Shown one piece after another: positions 28,391 to 42,422 of a DNA stretch of 56,784 nucleotides. The notes beneath the pieces were generated by a model that saw nothing but the letters and a program-made list of their open reading frames with translations, had not been told where the DNA came from and did no database searches. Source of the stretch: Candidatus Zapsychrus exili (GTDB taxonomy: Bacteria > Omnitrophota > Gorgyraeia > Zapsychrales > Zapsychraceae); NCBI GenBank assembly GCA_030765585.1, contig JAVCCJ010000020.1, positions 1 to 56,784 of the forward strand, in the 5' to 3' direction. Position 1 is the first letter of the stretch. Each line of letters opens with the position of its first letter. The translations under genes were made by a program, and so were the position numbers.

Positions 28391-30085
28391 ATGGATAATA
28401 AAGACACAAATAATAAAAATTCTTTAGATTTTATTCGCGCTAGAGTTAAGGAAGATGTGAGCGCAAGTAAGAATGATAAAAGAGTTATAACTCGTTTTCC
28501 ACCGGAACCCAATGGATATCTGCATATAGGTCATGCCAAGGCTATTTGTCTAAATTTTGGAATAGCAAAGGAAAATGACGCTGTATGTCATCTACGCTTT
28601 GATGACACAAACCCAACAAAAGAAGAACAAGAGTATGTAGATTCGATAATAGAAGATGTTAAGTGGTTAGGGTTTGATTGGGGTAACCATTTATATTATG
28701 CGTCAGATTATTTTGATAGATTCTATGAATTTGCTTTGCAACTTATAGAGCAGGGTAAAGCTTATATTGATGATTTAAATGCAGAGCAAATACGTGAACA
28801 TAGAGGTACCTTAACAGATCCAGGTAAGGACAGTCCTTGTCGAAATCGTCCTGTACACGAAAATTTAGATTTATTTCATCAAATGAGAGCGGGTGAGTTT
28901 AACGAAGGTGATTGTGTGCTCCGCGCGAAGATTAATATGAGTTCTCCTAATTTAAATATGAGAGATCCTATTATTTATCGCATATTAAAAGCAGATCATC
29001 ATAGGACAAAGGACAATTGGTGTATTTATCCTATGTATGATTTTGCACATAGTATTTCTGATTCGATAGAGGGGATAACTCATTCAATTTGTACTTTAGA
29101 ATTTGAAAACCATAGACCATTGTATGAATGGTTTTTAGAAGAGTTGAATATTTTTCGTTCTAAACAAATTGAGTTTGCTCGTCTTAATTTAAGCTATACG
29201 ATCTTAAGTAAGCGTAAGTTATTACAATTAGTTGAAGAAAAGCATGTTTCTGGTTGGGATGATCCAAGGATGCCAACGATATCTGGTTTAAGGCGTAGAG
29301 GATATTCTTCGGCAAGTATTAGAGAGTTTTGTTCTCGCATTGGAGTTGCTAAGTTTGATAGCCTAGTTGATAAGGCACTTTTAGAGTATTGCCTAAGAGA
29401 AGATTTAAATAAAAAAGCAGAAAGAAGAATGGCAGTTCTTAAGCCTTTGAAAGTTGTTATTACTAATTATCCTCAAGATAAAAGTGAGGAACTTGATGCA
29501 ATCAATAATCCTGAAGACGAAACGGCAGGATCGCGTACAGTCTTATTTTCAAAAGAGATTTATATAGAGCAAGATGATTTTTTAGAGGATGCTCCAAAGA
29601 AATTCTTTAGACTATCTGTTGGTAGAGAAGTGAGACTACGTTATGCATATTTTGTTACATGTCAGGAAGTTATTAAAGACCCTACAACAGGTGAAATAAT
29701 AGAAATTCGTTGTACTTATGATCCTGAAACTAAGGGAGGAAATTCTCCCGACGGCAGAAAAGTAAAAGGAACAATTCATTGGGTATCGGCAGAGTATGCA
29801 ATAGGGGCAAAGGTAAGATTGTATGATAATCTATTTTTAAAAGAGGATCCAAATAAAATAGATGAGGGTAAGGATTTTAAAGAAAATTTAAATCTGAATT
29901 CTATAGAGGTGTTAGAGAAATGTTTTCTAGAGCCGAGCTTAAAAGATGCTAAGGCCGGAGAGCATTATCAATTTGAACGTTTGGGTTATTTTTGTGTTGA
30001 TTCTAAAGACTCAACACAAGATGCGCCTGTTTTTAATAGAACATCTACCTTAAGAGATGCTTGGGTAAAAATCCAAAAGAAATAA
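28391..30085 (+). CDS. glnS: glutaminyl-tRNA synthetase
   Basis: This 564-residue class Ic synthetase shows [22 protein letters not shown] (the [12 protein letters not shown] form specific to GlnRS) and the KMSKS equivalent [23 protein letters not shown] and the two C-terminal anticodon-binding beta-barrels are present. Length matches E. coli GlnS (554). GlnRS is patchy in bacteria and was acquired from eukaryotes, so its presence next to gltX points to horizontal history. If the genome lacks GatCAB, Gln-tRNA relies on this enzyme. Confidence 0.97.
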
Positions 30086-34324: not shown

Positions 34325-35842
34325 ATGTCAAAAAAGCAAGGCTTTGATAACGAAAAGTATTTAAAAGAACAAACCGAAGCGATTTTAAAACGGGTTGAGA
34401 GATTTGATAATAAGCTCTATTTAGAGTTTGGCGGGAAATTACTTTTTGATTATCATGCTGCTCGCGTCCTTCCTGGATTTGATCCAAATGTTAAAATGAG
34501 ACTTTTAAAACAGTTAAGCAGTAGTGCTGATATTATTTTGTGTATCTATGCAGGAGACATTGAAAGAAAAAAAGTAAGAGCTGATTTTGGTATAACTTAT
34601 GATGTTGATGCATTGAAACTAATTGATGACCTTAAAGGGTGGGATATTGATGTTTGCGCTGTTGTTATAACGCGCTTTGAAGGTCAACCCGCAGCCACTA
34701 TCTTTAAAAATAAATTAGAACGTCGCAAAATAAAAGTATATACCCATCCGTTTACAGAAGGGTATCCAACGGATGTGGATCTGATTGTTAGTGATAAAGG
34801 GTACGGAGCAAACGCTTATATTGAAACAAAAAATCGTTTGGTTATTGTAACTGGTCCTGGACCAGGAAGTGGAAAACTTGCGACGTGCATGTCACAGCTC
34901 TATCATGAACATAAACATGGAGTAAACGCAGGTTATGCAAAGTTTGAAACATTTCCAATATGGAATTTACCTTTGAAACATCCTGTTAACATTGCATATG
35001 AATGTGCAACAGCTGATATCAAAGATTTTAATTTAATTGACTCGTTTCATTTAGAGGCATATGGCAAGACAACAGTTAATTACAATAGAGACGTTGAAAT
35101 ATTTCCAGTTTTAAAAAGAATATTAGGAAAGATTATGGGAGAAGATATATACAACTCTCCTACTGATATGGGAGTTAATTGCGCTGGGTCTGGAATTGTC
35201 GACGATGAAGTTTGTCGTGAAGCATCGCAACAAGAGGCGATAAGGAGATATTTTAGATATAAATATGAATATATAATGGGCCTAGTTGATCAAGAATCAG
35301 TGCAAAGAGCTGATTTGTTGATGGAAGAAATGGGGGTTCGTGTCGAAGACAGAAAAGTTGTTGAAGCTGCAAGGGCTGCAGCCGCAGATGCAGAGAAAAA
35401 AGGCGGAGGTAATGAGGGAGTTTATTGCGGAGCGGCGATTGAGCTGCATAGCGGAGAAATTGTAACAGGTAAAAATTCGCCTTTGATGCATGCCGCATCA
35501 AGTCTGATTATAAATGTTTTAAAGAAAATGGCAGAGATACCAGATAGAATACCATTATTATCAGAAAATATTATAAAATCTATATCAAATCTTAAGAATA
35601 ATATTTTAGATGCTAAGACAATAAGTTTAGATTTAGATGAGACTTTGATAAGCTTAAGCATTAGTGCTGCTACAAATCCTGCAGCACAGCTAGCTATAGA
35701 AAAGTTAAGTGAATTGCAAGGTTGTGAAGTGCATATAACGCATATTCCAACAGCTGGAGATGAAGCGGGATTAAGAAGATTAGGCGTGAATTTGACTAGT
35801 GATCCTAATTTCTCATCAAAAAGTTTTTGTAAGGCTACATAA
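34325..35842 (+). CDS. DUF1846 protein
   Basis: This 505-residue protein is full length for DUF1846 (about 495). The start GFDNEKYLKEQTEAILKRVERFDNKLYLEFGGKL, the Rossmann-like ITRFEGQPAATIFKNKLE, VTGPGPGSGKLATCMSQLYHEHKHG (a P-loop-like glycine turn) and the SPTDMGVNCAG segment are conserved family features. Structures exist for Gram-positive homologues but the reaction is unknown. A TTGACA box (34103-34108) with a weak TTTAAT lies far upstream. carB follows after 51 nt. Confidence 0.9.
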   Translation: MSKKQGFDNEKYLKEQTEAILKRVERFDNKLYLEFGGKLLFDYHAARVLPGFDPNVKMRLLKQLSSSADIILCIYAGDIERKKVRADFGITYDVDALKLIDDLKGWDIDVCAVVITRFEGQPAATIFKNKLERRKIKVYTHPFTEGYPTDVDLIVSDKGYGANAYIETKNRLVIVTGPGPGSGKLATCMSQLYHEHKHGVNAGYAKFETFPIWNLPLKHPVNIAYECATADIKDFNLIDSFHLEAYGKTTVNYNRDVEIFPVLKRILGKIMGEDIYNSPTDMGVNCAGSGIVDDEVCREASQQEAIRRYFRYKYEYIMGLVDQESVQRADLLMEEMGVRVEDRKVVEAARAAAADAEKKGGGNEGVYCGAAIELHSGEIVTGKNSPLMHAASSLIINVLKKMAEIPDRIPLLSENIIKSISNLKNNILDAKTISLDLDETLISLSISAATNPAAQLAIEKLSELQGCEVHITHIPTAGDEAGLRRLGVNLTSDPNFSSKSFCKAT

Positions 35843-35893: not shown

Positions 35894-38800
35894 ATGGTAC
35901 GAAGAAAAGACATTAAGAAAGTTCTTATTATTGGTTCTGGTCCTATTATTATAGGGCAAGCTTGTGAATTTGATTATTCAGGAACGCAAGCATGTAAGGC
36001 ATTAAAAGAAGAGGGCTTTGAGGTTGTGTTGGTTAATTCGAATCCAGCTACTATTATGACTGATCCAACGACGGCTGATAAAACATATATTGAACCGCTT
36101 ACTGCAGAAAGTATTGAAGCGATTATTGAAAAAGAACGTCCAGATGGTTTGTTACCTAATTTAGGTGGGCAAACAGGACTTAATTTATCAGCTACTTTAC
36201 ATAAAACTGGAGTGTTGAAAAAATACGGAATTGAAATGATTGGTGTTAAGGCCGATGTTATTGAGCGTGGTGAAGATAGAATTTCATTTAAAGAGACTAT
36301 GGATAAAATTGGGATTGAGATGGCAAAATCTGAGCCGTCTCATTCTGTAGAAGAGGCCGAAGGTATTGCAGAGAAGCTAGGTTATCCGGTCGTGTTGCGT
36401 CCAGCATATACGATGGGAGGAACAGGCGGAGGAATAGCTTATAATGTTGAAGAATTACGTACGATAGTTACTAGAGGATTAGCTGTTAGTCTTGTTGGTC
36501 AGGTTTTGGTTGAAGAATCTGTTTATGGATGGGAAGAACTTGAGCTTGAAGTTGTAAGAGATGATAAAAATAATAAAATCACGGTTTGTTTTATTGAAAA
36601 TATTGATGCAATGGGTGTTCACACTGGAGATAGCTTCTGCTCAGCTCCAATGTTGACCGTACCACAAGAATTGCAAGATCGTATGCAAGACGCCTCGTAT
36701 AAAATAGTTGATGCTATAGGAGTGATCGGTGGTACCAACGTTCAGTTTGCGCATGATCCAGAATCTGATCGCTTGATTGTTATAGAAATTAATCCAAGAA
36801 CCTCGCGTTCGTCTGCGCTTGCATCAAAGGCAACAGGATTTCCTATTGCTCGTATTTCTACAAAACTAGCAGCAGGATTAAATATGGACGAAATTCCATA
36901 TTGGAGAGATGGGACGCTTGATAAATATGTTCCAAGCGGAGAATATGTTGTTATTAAATTTGCTCGTTGGGCATTTGAAAAATTTGCTCAAGCAAAAGAT
37001 ATACTTGGAACTCAGATGAAGGCAGTTGGAGAAGTTATGAGCATTGCAAAAACTTTTCAAGAGTCTTTTCAAAAAGCAATTCGTTCGCTTGAAATTAAAC
37101 AGTATGGATTGGGTTATGCAAAGAATTACAATGAACTTTCATTAGATGAAATAAAGAAGAAGTTGGCATATCCGTCGAGCCAGAGAGTATTTTTAATGTA
37201 TGAAGCTTTAAGAAAAGGAATGGACGTGCAAGAACTCCATAAGCTTACATACATAGGAGTTTATTTTATTAATGCAATGAAAGAATTGGTTGATTATGAG
37301 GAAGAAATAACAAAGGTAAAATTTAAAGACTTGTCAGTTGATAAATTAAAGAAAGCAAAGCAGCTAGGGTTTGCAGATAAATATCTGGCTAAAGTGTTTG
37401 GTGTGGATGAAAAGCAGGTAAGAGACACAAGAATAAAGGCTGGCATTATTGCAAAATATGAGCCTGTTCCTGTTAGTGGCGTCAATGATGCAGCATACTA
37501 TTACTCAACATATGCTGATGTTGAAGACCAAGTTACTGTTTCAAAAAATAAAAAGATTATGATTTTAGGTGGCGGGCCAAATAGAATAGGTCAAGGTATT
37601 GAGTTTGATTATACTTGCGTGCATGCCGCATTCACTTTAAGAGATGCAGGGTATGAATCTATTATGGTTAATTGTAATCCTGAGACTGTTTCAACAGATT
37701 ATGATACATCTAATAAACTTTATTTTGAACCTTTAACTGTTGAGGATGTATTAAGCATTTATGAAAAAGAAAAACCAGAAGGCGTTATTGTTCAGTTTGG
37801 CGGACAGACTCCTTTAAATATTGCACAAGAATTAAAAGATAACGGAGTTCCTATTTTAGGAACAACACCAGAAAGTATTGATTTCGCAGAGGATCGCGAA
37901 CGTTTTAGAGAAAAAATGATAACACTTGGAATTCCTCAGCCAGAAAGTGATACAGCAAGGTCTTTAGATCAAGCTTTAAAGATTGCTGATAAAATTGGAT
38001 ATCCTTTGATGGTTCGTCCTTCTTATGTGTTAGGTGGACGAGGAATGGAAGTTATTTATGAAGAAGAATCTTTAAGAAAATATGCAACAGAGGCAATTAA
38101 TGTAAGCCCTGAGCACCCTATGCTTATTGATAGATTCTTAGAGCAGGCAACAGAAGCAGAAGTTGATGCTATTTCTGATGGAGAAGATTCTTTTGTAGCA
38201 TCTATTATGGAACATATTGAGCTTGCTGGTGTTCATAGTGGAGATTCAGCATGCTCTATTCCAAGTAGAACCATTAAAAAAGAACATATAGAAACAATAA
38301 AAGATTATACAAAGAAAATAGCAAAAGAATTAAAAGTAATTGGTTTGATTAATATTCAATTTGCTATTTGCGATGATAAAGTTTATATCTTGGAAGCCAA
38401 TCCTCGTGCGTCAAGAACGGTTCCTATTGTTTCAAAGATAGCAGGCATATCTTTGGCAAGAATGGCAACAGAAATTATGTTAGGAAAGAAAGTAAAGGAT
38501 CTTCCAAAGTTTGATGTTGATAATATTCCTTACGTAGGGGTTAAAGAGTCAGTGTTTCCATTTAATATGTTTCCTGAGGTTGATCCAATATTAGGACCTG
38601 AGATGAGAGCAACAGGTGAGGTTATGGGAATAGCAGATACTTTTGGTATGGCATTTTATAAAGCCCAAGAATCAGCAGGATATAAATTGCCTTCTGAAGG
38701 CAATGTTTTAATTACAATAGCAAAGCGAGATAGAAAAGTTCTTCTTCCTATTGCAAAAAAGATAGAAGCCTTAGGTTTTACTATTCTTGCAACAGAAGGA

Positions 38801-39103
38801 ACAAGTAAGTTTTTAGATGAAAATGGTGTCAAGAGTACCGTTGCTAAGAAATTGCATGAAGGTCGTCCTAACATAGCAGATGCAATCAAAAATAATGAGC
38901 TAGCTCTTATACTCAACACACCAATTGGAAAAGACAGTCAACATGATGATAGCTACATAAGAATGATGGCAATACAAAAGAAGATTCCTTATGTTACATC
39001 TATTGCCGCAGCAGAAGCAACAGTTGCTGGAATAGAGGCAATGAAGACTGGAGATAAATCTCCTAAATCATTGCAAGAGTATCATGCATTATTGAATAAA
39101 TAA
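35894..39103 (+). CDS. carB: carbamoyl-phosphate synthase large subunit
   Basis: This 1069-residue enzyme makes carbamoyl phosphate from bicarbonate, ammonia and two ATP. It has two homologous ATP-grasp halves: KKVLIIGSGPIIIGQACEFDYSGTQACKAL at the start and KKIMILGGGPNRIGQGIEFDYTCVHAAF near residue 555. The C-terminal MGS-like allosteric domain follows (VLITIAKRDRKVLLPIA). Its glutaminase partner carA is not in this window. The next gene encodes a PurF-like protein. Carbamoyl phosphate also feeds HypF, encoded 9 kb downstream. Confidence 0.98.
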   Translation: MVRRKDIKKVLIIGSGPIIIGQACEFDYSGTQACKALKEEGFEVVLVNSNPATIMTDPTTADKTYIEPLTAESIEAIIEKERPDGLLPNLGGQTGLNLSATLHKTGVLKKYGIEMIGVKADVIERGEDRISFKETMDKIGIEMAKSEPSHSVEEAEGIAEKLGYPVVLRPAYTMGGTGGGIAYNVEELRTIVTRGLAVSLVGQVLVEESVYGWEELELEVVRDDKNNKITVCFIENIDAMGVHTGDSFCSAPMLTVPQELQDRMQDASYKIVDAIGVIGGTNVQFAHDPESDRLIVIEINPRTSRSSALASKATGFPIARISTKLAAGLNMDEIPYWRDGTLDKYVPSGEYVVIKFARWAFEKFAQAKDILGTQMKAVGEVMSIAKTFQESFQKAIRSLEIKQYGLGYAKNYNELSLDEIKKKLAYPSSQRVFLMYEALRKGMDVQELHKLTYIGVYFINAMKELVDYEEEITKVKFKDLSVDKLKKAKQLGFADKYLAKVFGVDEKQVRDTRIKAGIIAKYEPVPVSGVNDAAYYYSTYADVEDQVTVSKNKKIMILGGGPNRIGQGIEFDYTCVHAAFTLRDAGYESIMVNCNPETVSTDYDTSNKLYFEPLTVEDVLSIYEKEKPEGVIVQFGGQTPLNIAQELKDNGVPILGTTPESIDFAEDRERFREKMITLGIPQPESDTARSLDQALKIADKIGYPLMVRPSYVLGGRGMEVIYEEESLRKYATEAINVSPEHPMLIDRFLEQATEAEVDAISDGEDSFVASIMEHIELAGVHSGDSACSIPSRTIKKEHIETIKDYTKKIAKELKVIGLINIQFAICDDKVYILEANPRASRTVPIVSKIAGISLARMATEIMLGKKVKDLPKFDVDNIPYVGVKESVFPFNMFPEVDPILGPEMRATGEVMGIADTFGMAFYKAQESAGYKLPSEGNVLITIAKRDRKVLLPIAKKIEALGFTILATEGTSKFLDENGVKSTVAKKLHEGRPNIADAIKNNELALILNTPIGKDSQHDDSYIRMMAIQKKIPYVTSIAAAEATVAGIEAMKTGDKSPKSLQEYHALLNK

Positions 39104-39129
39104 ATTAAATATAGAAGGAGAAAAAGATA

Positions 39130-40581
39130 ATGAGTGGAATTTTCGGAGCAATATCTAAAGACGATTGTGCAAAGACTTTATTTTATGGAATAGATTATCA
39201 TTCACATCTTGGAACAGAATATGGTGGAATAGCTGTTTTAGATAAAGAATTTAAACGTCAAATTCATAGTATAAGCCAAAGCCAATTTAAATCTAAGTTC
39301 TATGAAGATCATAAGCGTATGGTAGGTCCTAAAGGAATTGGTGCTATTAGCGATTTTGATGAACAGCCAATATACCTGAATTCTAAGTTTGGACCATTTT
39401 GTATAGTAACAGCTGGTCTTATTGAGAATAAAGCAGATCTTGAAGCCTTGCTTTTCAGCAAAGGTATTTCTTTTAGTGAAGTAAGTCAGAATGGTGAGCT
39501 TAACACAACTGAGCTTGTTGCAAAGCTAATAAGCTTAGGTGATAATCTTATACACGGAATTGAGCTTATGTTCGACGCTATTGAAGGGTCATGTTCGCTT
39601 CTTCTTCTTAATAAAGATGGTATTTATGCTGCTCGCGATAGACTTGGATATACTCCTTTGACCATAGGAAAAAAAGAGAATGATTGGATAGTTGCATCAG
39701 AAACAAATTCTTTTGCTAATCTTGGTTTTTCAATAGAACAATATTTAAAACCAGGAGAGGTAGTACTTTTAAATGAAAAGGGATTGTTATCTCAGAGAAA
39801 AGGCACAGAAGAGAGCCAGATTTGTTCCTTCCTCTGGATATATACTGGTTTTCCTGCATCAAATTATGAAGGTATCAATACTGAAACTGTTCGCGAACGT
39901 TGCGGACGTGCATTAGCAAAACAAGACAAAGATATTGAGGCAGATGTTGTTGCTGGCGTGCCAGATTCTGGAACAGCACATGCAATAGGTTATGCTATGG
40001 AATCAGGTAAGCCATATAGAAGGCCTTTAGTTAAATATACTCCAGGATATGGAAGAAGTTATACTCCTCCATCTCAAGAGACGAGAGATCTTATTGCTAC
40101 GATGAAACTTATTGCTATCGACGAGATCATAAAAGATAATAAGGTTATTATTTGTGAGGATTCAATTGTAAGAGGAACACAATTGAAGAATTTTACAGTT
40201 AATAAGCTTTGGAACGCAGGGGCAAAAGAAATTCATGTTAGACCTGCTTGTCCACCTTTAATGTTTCCTTGTAAGTTCTGTTTGTCTACTAGAAGTATTG
40301 ATGAATTAGCGGCCCGAAAAGCCATTCGCGATATTGAGGGCAAGGACATAGAAGATGTTTCAGAATATCTTGATACTACTTCAGAAAAATATAAAAAGAT
40401 GGTCGATTGGATTAGAAAAGATATTGAGGTGACTACCTTAAGATATTTAAGAATAGAAGACATGATTGAAGCAATTGGTCTTCCTAAGGAAAAGATTTGT
40501 CTATATTGTTGGAACGGAAAATGTCCAGGCTCTGAATGTTCGTCTAAAAAAGACCTTGCAAAAGAAGGTGCTGTTAAATAA
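39130..40581 (+). CDS. PurF-like amidophosphoribosyltransferase homologue with Cys-to-Ser at the nucleophile
   Basis: This 483-residue homologue of glutamine PRPP amidotransferase has an N-terminal glutaminase-like fold (1-about 230) and a phosphoribosyltransferase domain with VIICEDSIVRGTQL (PRPP loop; normally 'DDSIVRGTT'). PurF uses an N-terminal Cys (MCGIFG); here the start reads MSGIFGAISKDD, so the nucleophile is Ser2. The start is firm (AAGGAG upstream). Fe-S cluster cysteines like those of B. subtilis PurF appear conserved (QICSFLW, PLMFPCKFC, CLYCWNGKCPGSEC). Glutaminase activity is probably lost. It may use free ammonia or have another role. It lies between carB and Ni-uptake genes. 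Confidence 0.85.
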   Translation: MSGIFGAISKDDCAKTLFYGIDYHSHLGTEYGGIAVLDKEFKRQIHSISQSQFKSKFYEDHKRMVGPKGIGAISDFDEQPIYLNSKFGPFCIVTAGLIENKADLEALLFSKGISFSEVSQNGELNTTELVAKLISLGDNLIHGIELMFDAIEGSCSLLLLNKDGIYAARDRLGYTPLTIGKKENDWIVASETNSFANLGFSIEQYLKPGEVVLLNEKGLLSQRKGTEESQICSFLWIYTGFPASNYEGINTETVRERCGRALAKQDKDIEADVVAGVPDSGTAHAIGYAMESGKPYRRPLVKYTPGYGRSYTPPSQETRDLIATMKLIAIDEIIKDNKVIICEDSIVRGTQLKNFTVNKLWNAGAKEIHVRPACPPLMFPCKFCLSTRSIDELAARKAIRDIEGKDIEDVSEYLDTTSEKYKKMVDWIRKDIEVTTLRYLRIEDMIEAIGLPKEKICLYCWNGKCPGSECSSKKDLAKEGAVK

Positions 40582-40615: not shown

Positions 40616-41329
40616 GTGTCACAGGAATTAATAGTTTTATTAATTACAGCTGCATCAATAGGGTTTTTTCATACATTATTTGGTCCAGATCACTATGTCC
40701 CTTTTATTGTTATGTCAAAGGCTAAAAAATGGTCTTATTGGAAGACCTTTGGCATAACATTTTTATGTGGGCTAGGGCATGTTGGAAGCTCTATTGTTTT
40801 AGGAATTATAGGTGTATTGTTTGGAGTAGCTCTTCAACGTTTAGAATTTTTTGAGTCAGTAAGAGGAGGCTGGGCAGCTTGGGCTTTAATAGCTTTTGGT
40901 CTTGTTTATACAATTTATGGCATAAAGCAAGCTATTAAAAATAAACCGCACACACATCTGCATTTTCATCAAGATGGTGAGCCTCATGAGCATCAACATA
41001 CTCATAATGGCGGACATGTTCATGTTCATGAAGCTAATGAAAAGTTTAATTATGTTCCATGGGCGTTATTTGTTGTTTTTGTTTTGGGTCCATGCGAACC
41101 GCTTATACCAATTCTAATGTATCCAGCTCTAAAGAGTAGCTTTTCCGCAATGATTCTCGTCGCTGGAGTTTTTAGTTTAGCTACAATATCTACCATGTTA
41201 GGCATGGTATTGTTATGCTCATTTGGCATAAGTTTCTTGCCTATTAAGAGAATTGAAAAATATTCCCATGCCTTAGCTGGTCTTTCAATACTTGCTTGCG
41301 GCTGTGCTATACAATTCTTGGGATTATAG
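40616..41329 (+). CDS. nickel/cobalt permease-like protein (UreH/HupE type)
   Basis: This 237-residue membrane protein starts with GTG after GAAAGGGG. The first segment contains HTLFGPDHYVPF, an HX4DH motif like that of NiCoT nickel transporters. A cytoplasmic loop near residues 118-142 is extremely His-rich (THLHFHQDGEPHEHQHTHNGG), fit for metal binding. About six membrane segments are seen. hypA follows after 8 nt, so nickel supply for hydrogenase maturation is the natural role. The exact family (UreH-like or TauE-like) is less certain. Confidence 0.82.
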   Translation: MSQELIVLLITAASIGFFHTLFGPDHYVPFIVMSKAKKWSYWKTFGITFLCGLGHVGSSIVLGIIGVLFGVALQRLEFFESVRGGWAAWALIAFGLVYTIYGIKQAIKNKPHTHLHFHQDGEPHEHQHTHNGGHVHVHEANEKFNYVPWALFVVFVLGPCEPLIPILMYPALKSSFSAMILVAGVFSLATISTMLGMVLLCSFGISFLPIKRIEKYSHALAGLSILACGCAIQFLGL

Positions 41330-42393: not shown

Positions 42394-42422
42394 TTGACAT
42401 CATTTGGCGTTGGTTCTATAAT
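42394..42422 (+). promoter_or_regulatory. consensus promoter of the CBS-hox operon
   Basis: TTGACA (42394-42399), exactly 17 nt, TATAAT (42417-42422). This is a perfect sigma-70 consensus, the strongest promoter seen in the window. It lies 53 nt before the CBS gene, which opens the hoxFUYHW genes. Confidence 0.85.

Follow-up and report, generated by a model that had tools for sequence, protein, structure and literature searches.

Gene organisation at the locus

The window, that is the whole stretch of 56,784 nucleotides analysed, belongs to an Omnitrophota MAG of 2.04 Mb (96% complete). It carries a PurF homologue, here termed purF-S, as the last gene of an operon of the order DUF1846-carB2-purF-S that lacks carA (Table 1). 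The DUF1846 protein reaches 762 bits against NF010184 (cut-off 631) and displays both Pfam domains, PF08903 and PF20921. No known RNA or riboswitch is detected at the gathering threshold between positions 30000 and 50000.

Table 1. Features of the purF-S operon in the window
Feature	Position	Strand	Remarks
DUF1846 (UPF0371) protein	34325..35842	+	Co-occurs with purF-S across relatives
carB2, carbamoyl-phosphate synthase large subunit	35894..39103	+	Second copy in the genome, without adjacent carA; ends 27 bp before purF-S
Shine-Dalgarno-like AGAAGGAG ahead of purF-S	39113..39120	+	Read directly
purF-S, PurF homologue with Ser2	39130..40581	+	483 aa, starts MSGIFGA; retains the PRTase and Fe-S parts but not the glutaminase pocket
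Codon 2, AGT (Ser), replacing the catalytic Cys codon	39133..39135	+	Read directly; Ser in 66/67 and Thr in 1/67 relatives
DYHSHLGTE motif, residues 22-30	39193..39219	+	Alignment
Cys232 codon, first Fe-S cysteine of PurF	39823..39825	+	Alignment
PRPP-binding motif CEDSIVRGTQ, residues 342-351	40153..40182	+	Alignment
Cys381 codon, second Fe-S cysteine of PurF	40270..40272	+	Alignment
Cys457 and Cys460 codons (CLYC), last two Fe-S cysteines of PurF	40498..40509	+	Alignment

Downstream of purF-S lie hypA, hypB, an NAD-linked NiFe hydrogenase and hypF. This adjacency is incidental, and a functional linkage to the hydrogenase was rejected: hyp genes are found within ~8 kb in only a few of ~70 loci, so that the link of the Ser2 clade to hyp genes envisaged in the earlier note is not conserved, and a promoter-like site belonging to the hydrogenase operon, a perfect sigma-70 consensus (TTGACA-17-TATAAT, 42394-42422), stands ahead of the CBS/hydrogenase genes. 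Positions 40616-41329 encode a membrane protein with a weak DsbD_2/DmeF match and a His-rich loop, HTHLHFHQDGEPHEHQHTHNGGHVHVHE, predicted as probably a nickel/cobalt transporter for the hydrogenase. A protein resembling it is encoded near purF-S at L161:8587-9255.

The host genome harbors two carB genes and one full carA. The latter is located at C59 of this genome, in the order carA-carB-purF-pyrG, where purF is of the Cys type (start MCGII, 491 bits). The second, canonical purF that the earlier note proposed to look for is thus present, though frameshifted in the assembly, at a T6 run after codon ~17 (L002:1480-1560; C59 about 29190-29275). Since the remaining 435 codons are open, the frameshift may stem from the assembly or from a recent mutation. 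In the assembly as it stands, purF-S is the sole intact PurF-type gene of the MAG. The window CarB2 is 51% identical to the CarB of C59, and 68-80% identical to the CarB2 proteins encoded beside other Ser-type genes.

A PurF fold without the glutamine pocket

The purF-S protein matches the PurF family TIGR01134 over its whole length with 211 bits, against a curated cut-off of 350; its relatives score about 180-221 bits, all below this cut-off. The nearest solved structures are those of Bacillus subtilis PurF (1gph/1ao0). The AF2 model (pLDDT 87) has 1ao0 as its best PDB match (TM 0.81/0.86, E 2e-40), and its superposition on this structure predicts that the PurF fold is kept. GlmS and AsnB match weakly, and with the N-terminal domain only; the synthase domain that follows the Ntn domain in these enzymes is absent from purF-S in profile and structure searches of the protein.

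Relatives were collected from a genome scan (34 loci) and from whole genomes, yielding 67 distinct Ser-clade proteins, with the Cys-type PurF of the same phylum as comparison. Position 2 is Ser in 66 of them and Thr in one (L060), which rules out chance as well as a sequencing or assembly error at codon 2. An artefact derived from an ordinary PurF could be imagined, the sequence being that of a MAG whose Cys-type purF has a homopolymer frameshift; it is refuted, with a probability close to nil, by the recurrence of Ser2 and of a loop deletion across several phyla, in dozens of independent sequences. This loop, the eight-residue HxRYSTTG, bears the Arg that binds the glutamine carboxylate and is deleted in 47/47 Ser and 5/5 Gly sequences of the alignment (see below for the latter). 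The Arg73 loop, Asn101-Gly102 and Asp127 (E. coli numbering) are taken here to form the glutamine pocket of PurF. In the Ser clade, the residues at the Asn101- and Asp127-type positions vary, and Gly (102) is all that is kept of the pocket. Where canonical PurF has YALQHRGE(E), the Ser2 and Gly2 clades display a nearly invariant DYHSHLGT(E).

The PRPP motif DSIVRGT, the Gln that follows it (RGTQ) and the four Fe-S cysteines (C232, C381, C457, C460) are invariant in the Ser clade, as is the GR(S/T) flexible loop in the alignment. A C-terminal insertion of ~25 residues is common to the Ser and Gly clades. Given the missing pocket residues and loop, and the invariance of the PRPP motif and Fe-S cysteines, the Ser clade is predicted to have lost the glutaminase and retained the type I phosphoribosyltransferase. 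Several claims of the earlier note are borne out by these data: a Ser at position 2 of a PurF homologue (MSGIFGA), a retained PRPP loop and Fe-S cysteines, all aligning with those of PurF, and a protein that is not a normal glutaminase. It had recognized the loss of the Cys but missed that of the whole pocket, as seen in the alignment, and the extra C-terminal cysteines it had pointed out (465, 470) are present but conserved only in part, column 465 being Cys in 30/47 sequences.

The Ser clade and its Gly2 sister group

In the tree, Ser-type and Gly-type proteins are joined against all sampled Cys-type PurFs (SH-aLRT 100), though no more than 24 rows, several of them long-branched, represent the Cys side. 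Each type forms one clade (SH-aLRT 87 for Ser, 98 for Gly). The Ser2-versus-Cys2 tree suggested in the earlier note therefore yields a single Ser2 clade, and this clade is linked to carB. Nanoarchaeota/Woesearchaeota MAGs (L059, L060, L067) also carry a purF-S gene, with Thr2 in L060; transfer and binning error are both possible origins.

Gly2 proteins, about 42-47% identical to purF-S (45-47% in a tblastn search of plasmids), are found in Bacteroides, Parabacteroides, Phocaeicola and Peptoclostridium. Annotated as "amidophosphoribosyltransferase" (e.g., WP_025436666.1), they share with purF-S the loop deletion, the DYHSHLGT-type motif, the C-terminal insertion and RGTQ. They differ by Gly at position 2 and by their surroundings, since they lie beside pepT (and gcvT) rather than carB2/DUF1846 or pur genes; pepT is the neighbour in all three annotated records. 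A Gly2 gene (43% identical) was also observed in MT836108, an unverified, unannotated faecal phage scaffold. Carriage by a phage was not retained, as this record is probably bacterial DNA.

The near-absolute Ser/Thr at position 2 suggests that a hydroxyl is under selection there, which would be needless in a dead domain. Ser and Thr act as nucleophiles in other Ntn hydrolases, and the presence of one or the other in 67/67 members would fit a residue that still attacks glutamine, or another amide, as the N-terminal nucleophile. The sister clade, however, shares the rest of the pocket motif with Gly at this very position, so that residue 2 is unlikely to act as a nucleophile in general. Furthermore, the glutamine-specificity residues are all lost, and Cys-to-Ser mutants of PurF and AsnB lose glutamine use according to PMC3261824. 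A nucleophilic Ser2 is thus considered very improbable.

Operon partners: carB2 and DUF1846

Besides the order seen in the window, the partners of purF-S are arranged as carB2-DUF1846-purF-S, DUF1846-purF-S-carB2, carB2-purF-S-DUF1846, or DUF1846-purF-S without carB2. Commonly, though not always, carB2 lacks a nearby carA: a carA-like ORF lies downstream of purF-S in locus L083 (genome G009). Among 55 relatives, DUF1846 is found in 16/18 genomes with purF-S and 0/37 without it (Fisher p 5e-12, kinship being ignored), even where the genes are not adjacent. Both genomes with purF-S and no DUF1846, G010 and G021, are less complete assemblies. In genera g11 and g14, DUF1846 and purF-S are present or absent together, except in G010.

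DUF1846 has been reported as essential in Clostridioides difficile (PMC12548448) and as hemin-binding in pneumococcus (PMC9238395). Its fold was considered as a clue to the chemistry and set aside, the AF2 model being poor (pLDDT 59.5, five sequences) and its good PDB matches belonging to its own family only (3BH1 and 7F00).

This constant company raises the possibility that purF-S phosphoribosylates another amine or nucleophile, together with DUF1846 and CarB2, in some other pathway, and that it joined the pur operons of one branch at a later stage. Such a role would account for the co-occurrence of DUF1846 and for a trio kept in at least four gene orders. It would also suit a clade set apart by its C-terminal insertion, by an altered flexible loop (KYTPGYGR) and by RGTQ instead of RGTT. 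On the other hand, no candidate acceptor is indicated, and DUF1846 is widespread in Firmicutes and Fusobacteria independently of purF-S. Another acceptor is a rather unlikely explanation.

Placement in purine operons

In one Omnitrophota branch (L057, L058, L167, L168, L170-L173), purF-S is embedded in a purB-purL-(LOG)-(purQ)-purF-S-purM-purD-purE arrangement, and a partial pur operon accompanies it in L053 and L061. A TIGR00730 protein (LOG-like, phosphoribohydrolase-type) is encoded between purL and purF-S in L167, L170, L171, L058 and L063, with purQ missing in several. Altogether, purF or other pur genes lie near purF-S in about 14 related loci, and not in the window. The earlier note had deemed the surroundings of purF-S unusual for purine synthesis. 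This is true of the lineage of the window, but not of the family at large, some of whose members reside in pur operons.

A survey of 287 Omnitrophota genomes (completeness of 88% or more) yields 32 with only a weak PurF-type best match, of which 29 are true Ser-type; G257 and G292 possess a second PurF-type match in this survey. Cys-type PurF was thus not found in about 29/287 genomes with purF-S, a count that MAG incompleteness could inflate. In nine genomes (G056 and eight of the survey), purF-S lies in a pur operon and no Cys-type PurF is listed. Mapped on the tree, the presence or absence of a Cys-type PurF changes at least three times in the pur-operon branch and 12 times over 55 rows, part of which may reflect MAG gaps. 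Where purF-S sits in a pur operon and no other PurF is found, phosphoribosylamine is needed, which speaks against a different acceptor in these genomes.

Most genomes with purF-S only (25/29) keep purD and purM. Both were not found in the four others, namely G134 (96% complete, 2 contigs), G140, G288 and G307, so that purine synthesis cannot be the sole use of purF-S there; these four genomes count in favour of the other-acceptor explanation.

Alternatively, purF-S could be a catalytically reduced partner or regulator of Cys-type PurF, within a heteromer or as a nucleotide/PRPP sensor. Such an association would fit the loci in which a Cys-type purF is in tandem with purF-S (L055, L063), one gene away (L039) or divergent (L067), as well as a DYHSHLGT pocket conserved even in the Gly2 clade. 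It is nevertheless improbable, given the purF-S-only genomes, where such a partner is missing, and the wholly conserved PRPP site.

PurQ is the glutaminase of another amidotransferase in the purine pathway. It was not found in 11/26 genomes with purF-S only, against 0/11 comparison genomes (p 0.015, kinship and completeness being ignored). Other neighbours of purF-S are single cases, and suggestive as such: an ammonia-type NadE (L037, L066), a GuaA ATP-PPase without glutaminase domain (L158), a glutamate dehydrogenase (L163), and Glu_synthase-domain proteins of ~530 aa with no other Pfam domain, just upstream of carB2-DUF1846-purF-S (L159:2695-4281, L163:2464-4053). Elsewhere among the loci, a 501-aa protein with two ThyX-type stretches (L092:1890-3395) might represent FAD-dependent thymidylate synthase fused in tandem.

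Proposed function

The earlier note had offered three options, i.e., use of ammonia, another acceptor or a regulatory role. The first fits best because purF-S replaces purF in the pur operons of relatives, and the two others are ranked lower. As judged from the sequences, purF-S would most likely be a PRPP amidotransferase without glutaminase, working on free ammonia, a reading held with moderate confidence. The reaction would be PRPP + NH3 -> 5-phosphoribosylamine + PPi. Phosphoribosylamine would be the product, and ammonia the donor, in the genomes with purF-S in a pur operon. The window copy, grouped with a carbamoyl-phosphate synthase devoid of CarA (CarB2) and with DUF1846, would do the same beside the Cys-type PurF and would probably be the version used where ammonium is plentiful. 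In E. coli PurF, replacement of Cys1 by Ser or Ala abolishes glutamine use and preserves ammonia use, as cited in PMC3261824. Surroundings poor in glutaminases, with carB2 devoid of carA and PurQ often not found, point the same way. Against ammonia use in the window lineage stand its neighbours, DUF1846 and carB2 instead of pur genes, and the existence of a Cys-type purF. The strict Ser/Thr at position 2 and the four genomes without purD and purM also count against this reading.

More tentatively, and with appreciable doubt, a glutaminase-free nitrogen regime might be envisaged in Omnitrophota and some DPANN archaea, in which PurF, CarB, PurL and others would work on ammonia, DUF1846 being a dedicated partner of these PurF and CarB versions.

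Relation to known systems and significance

With PurF (TIGR01134; B. subtilis 1ao0/1gph, E. coli 1ecb), purF-S shares the whole fold, the two domains, the PRPP motif, the four Fe-S cysteines of the B. subtilis type and ~30% identity. It departs from PurF by the lack of the N-terminal Cys, the Arg loop and the pocket Asn/Asp, by its low family score and by the C-terminal insertion. Closer in kind are the PurF' proteins of Crenarchaeota, Cys-less PurF paralogues near pur genes for which an ammonia-dependent role has been proposed as a hypothesis (Brown et al. 2011, PMC3261824). By their published description, they likewise are a second, Cys-less PurF-like protein in genomes with a normal PurF. 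Their position 2, however, is mostly Ala or Val instead of Ser, and, unlike PurF', purF-S occurs in some genomes where no Cys-type PurF was found. The PurF paralogue Mlab_0150 of Methanocorpusculum labreanum resembles purF-S in having Ser for the catalytic Cys; it is described as a product of recent duplication of the species' own purF (PMC3261824) and is thus an independent case. The purF-S clade is a bacterial counterpart of the kind already proposed as PurF' in 2011, and the bacterial clade is new: no report on Gly2 or Ser2 bacterial PurF families was found in the literature searched.

PurF is the textbook glutamine amidotransferase at the entry to purine synthesis. If the proposed function is true, purine synthesis would be naturally driven by ammonia, through a clade that has lost the glutaminase and yet stands in the place of purF, and the PurF' proposal would become testable in bacteria. 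The glutamine dependence implied by "amidophosphoribosyltransferase" annotations may be mistaken in Bacteroides, Clostridia and Omnitrophota. Finally, the tight link with DUF1846 provides a lead on an uncharacterised protein reported as essential in C. difficile.
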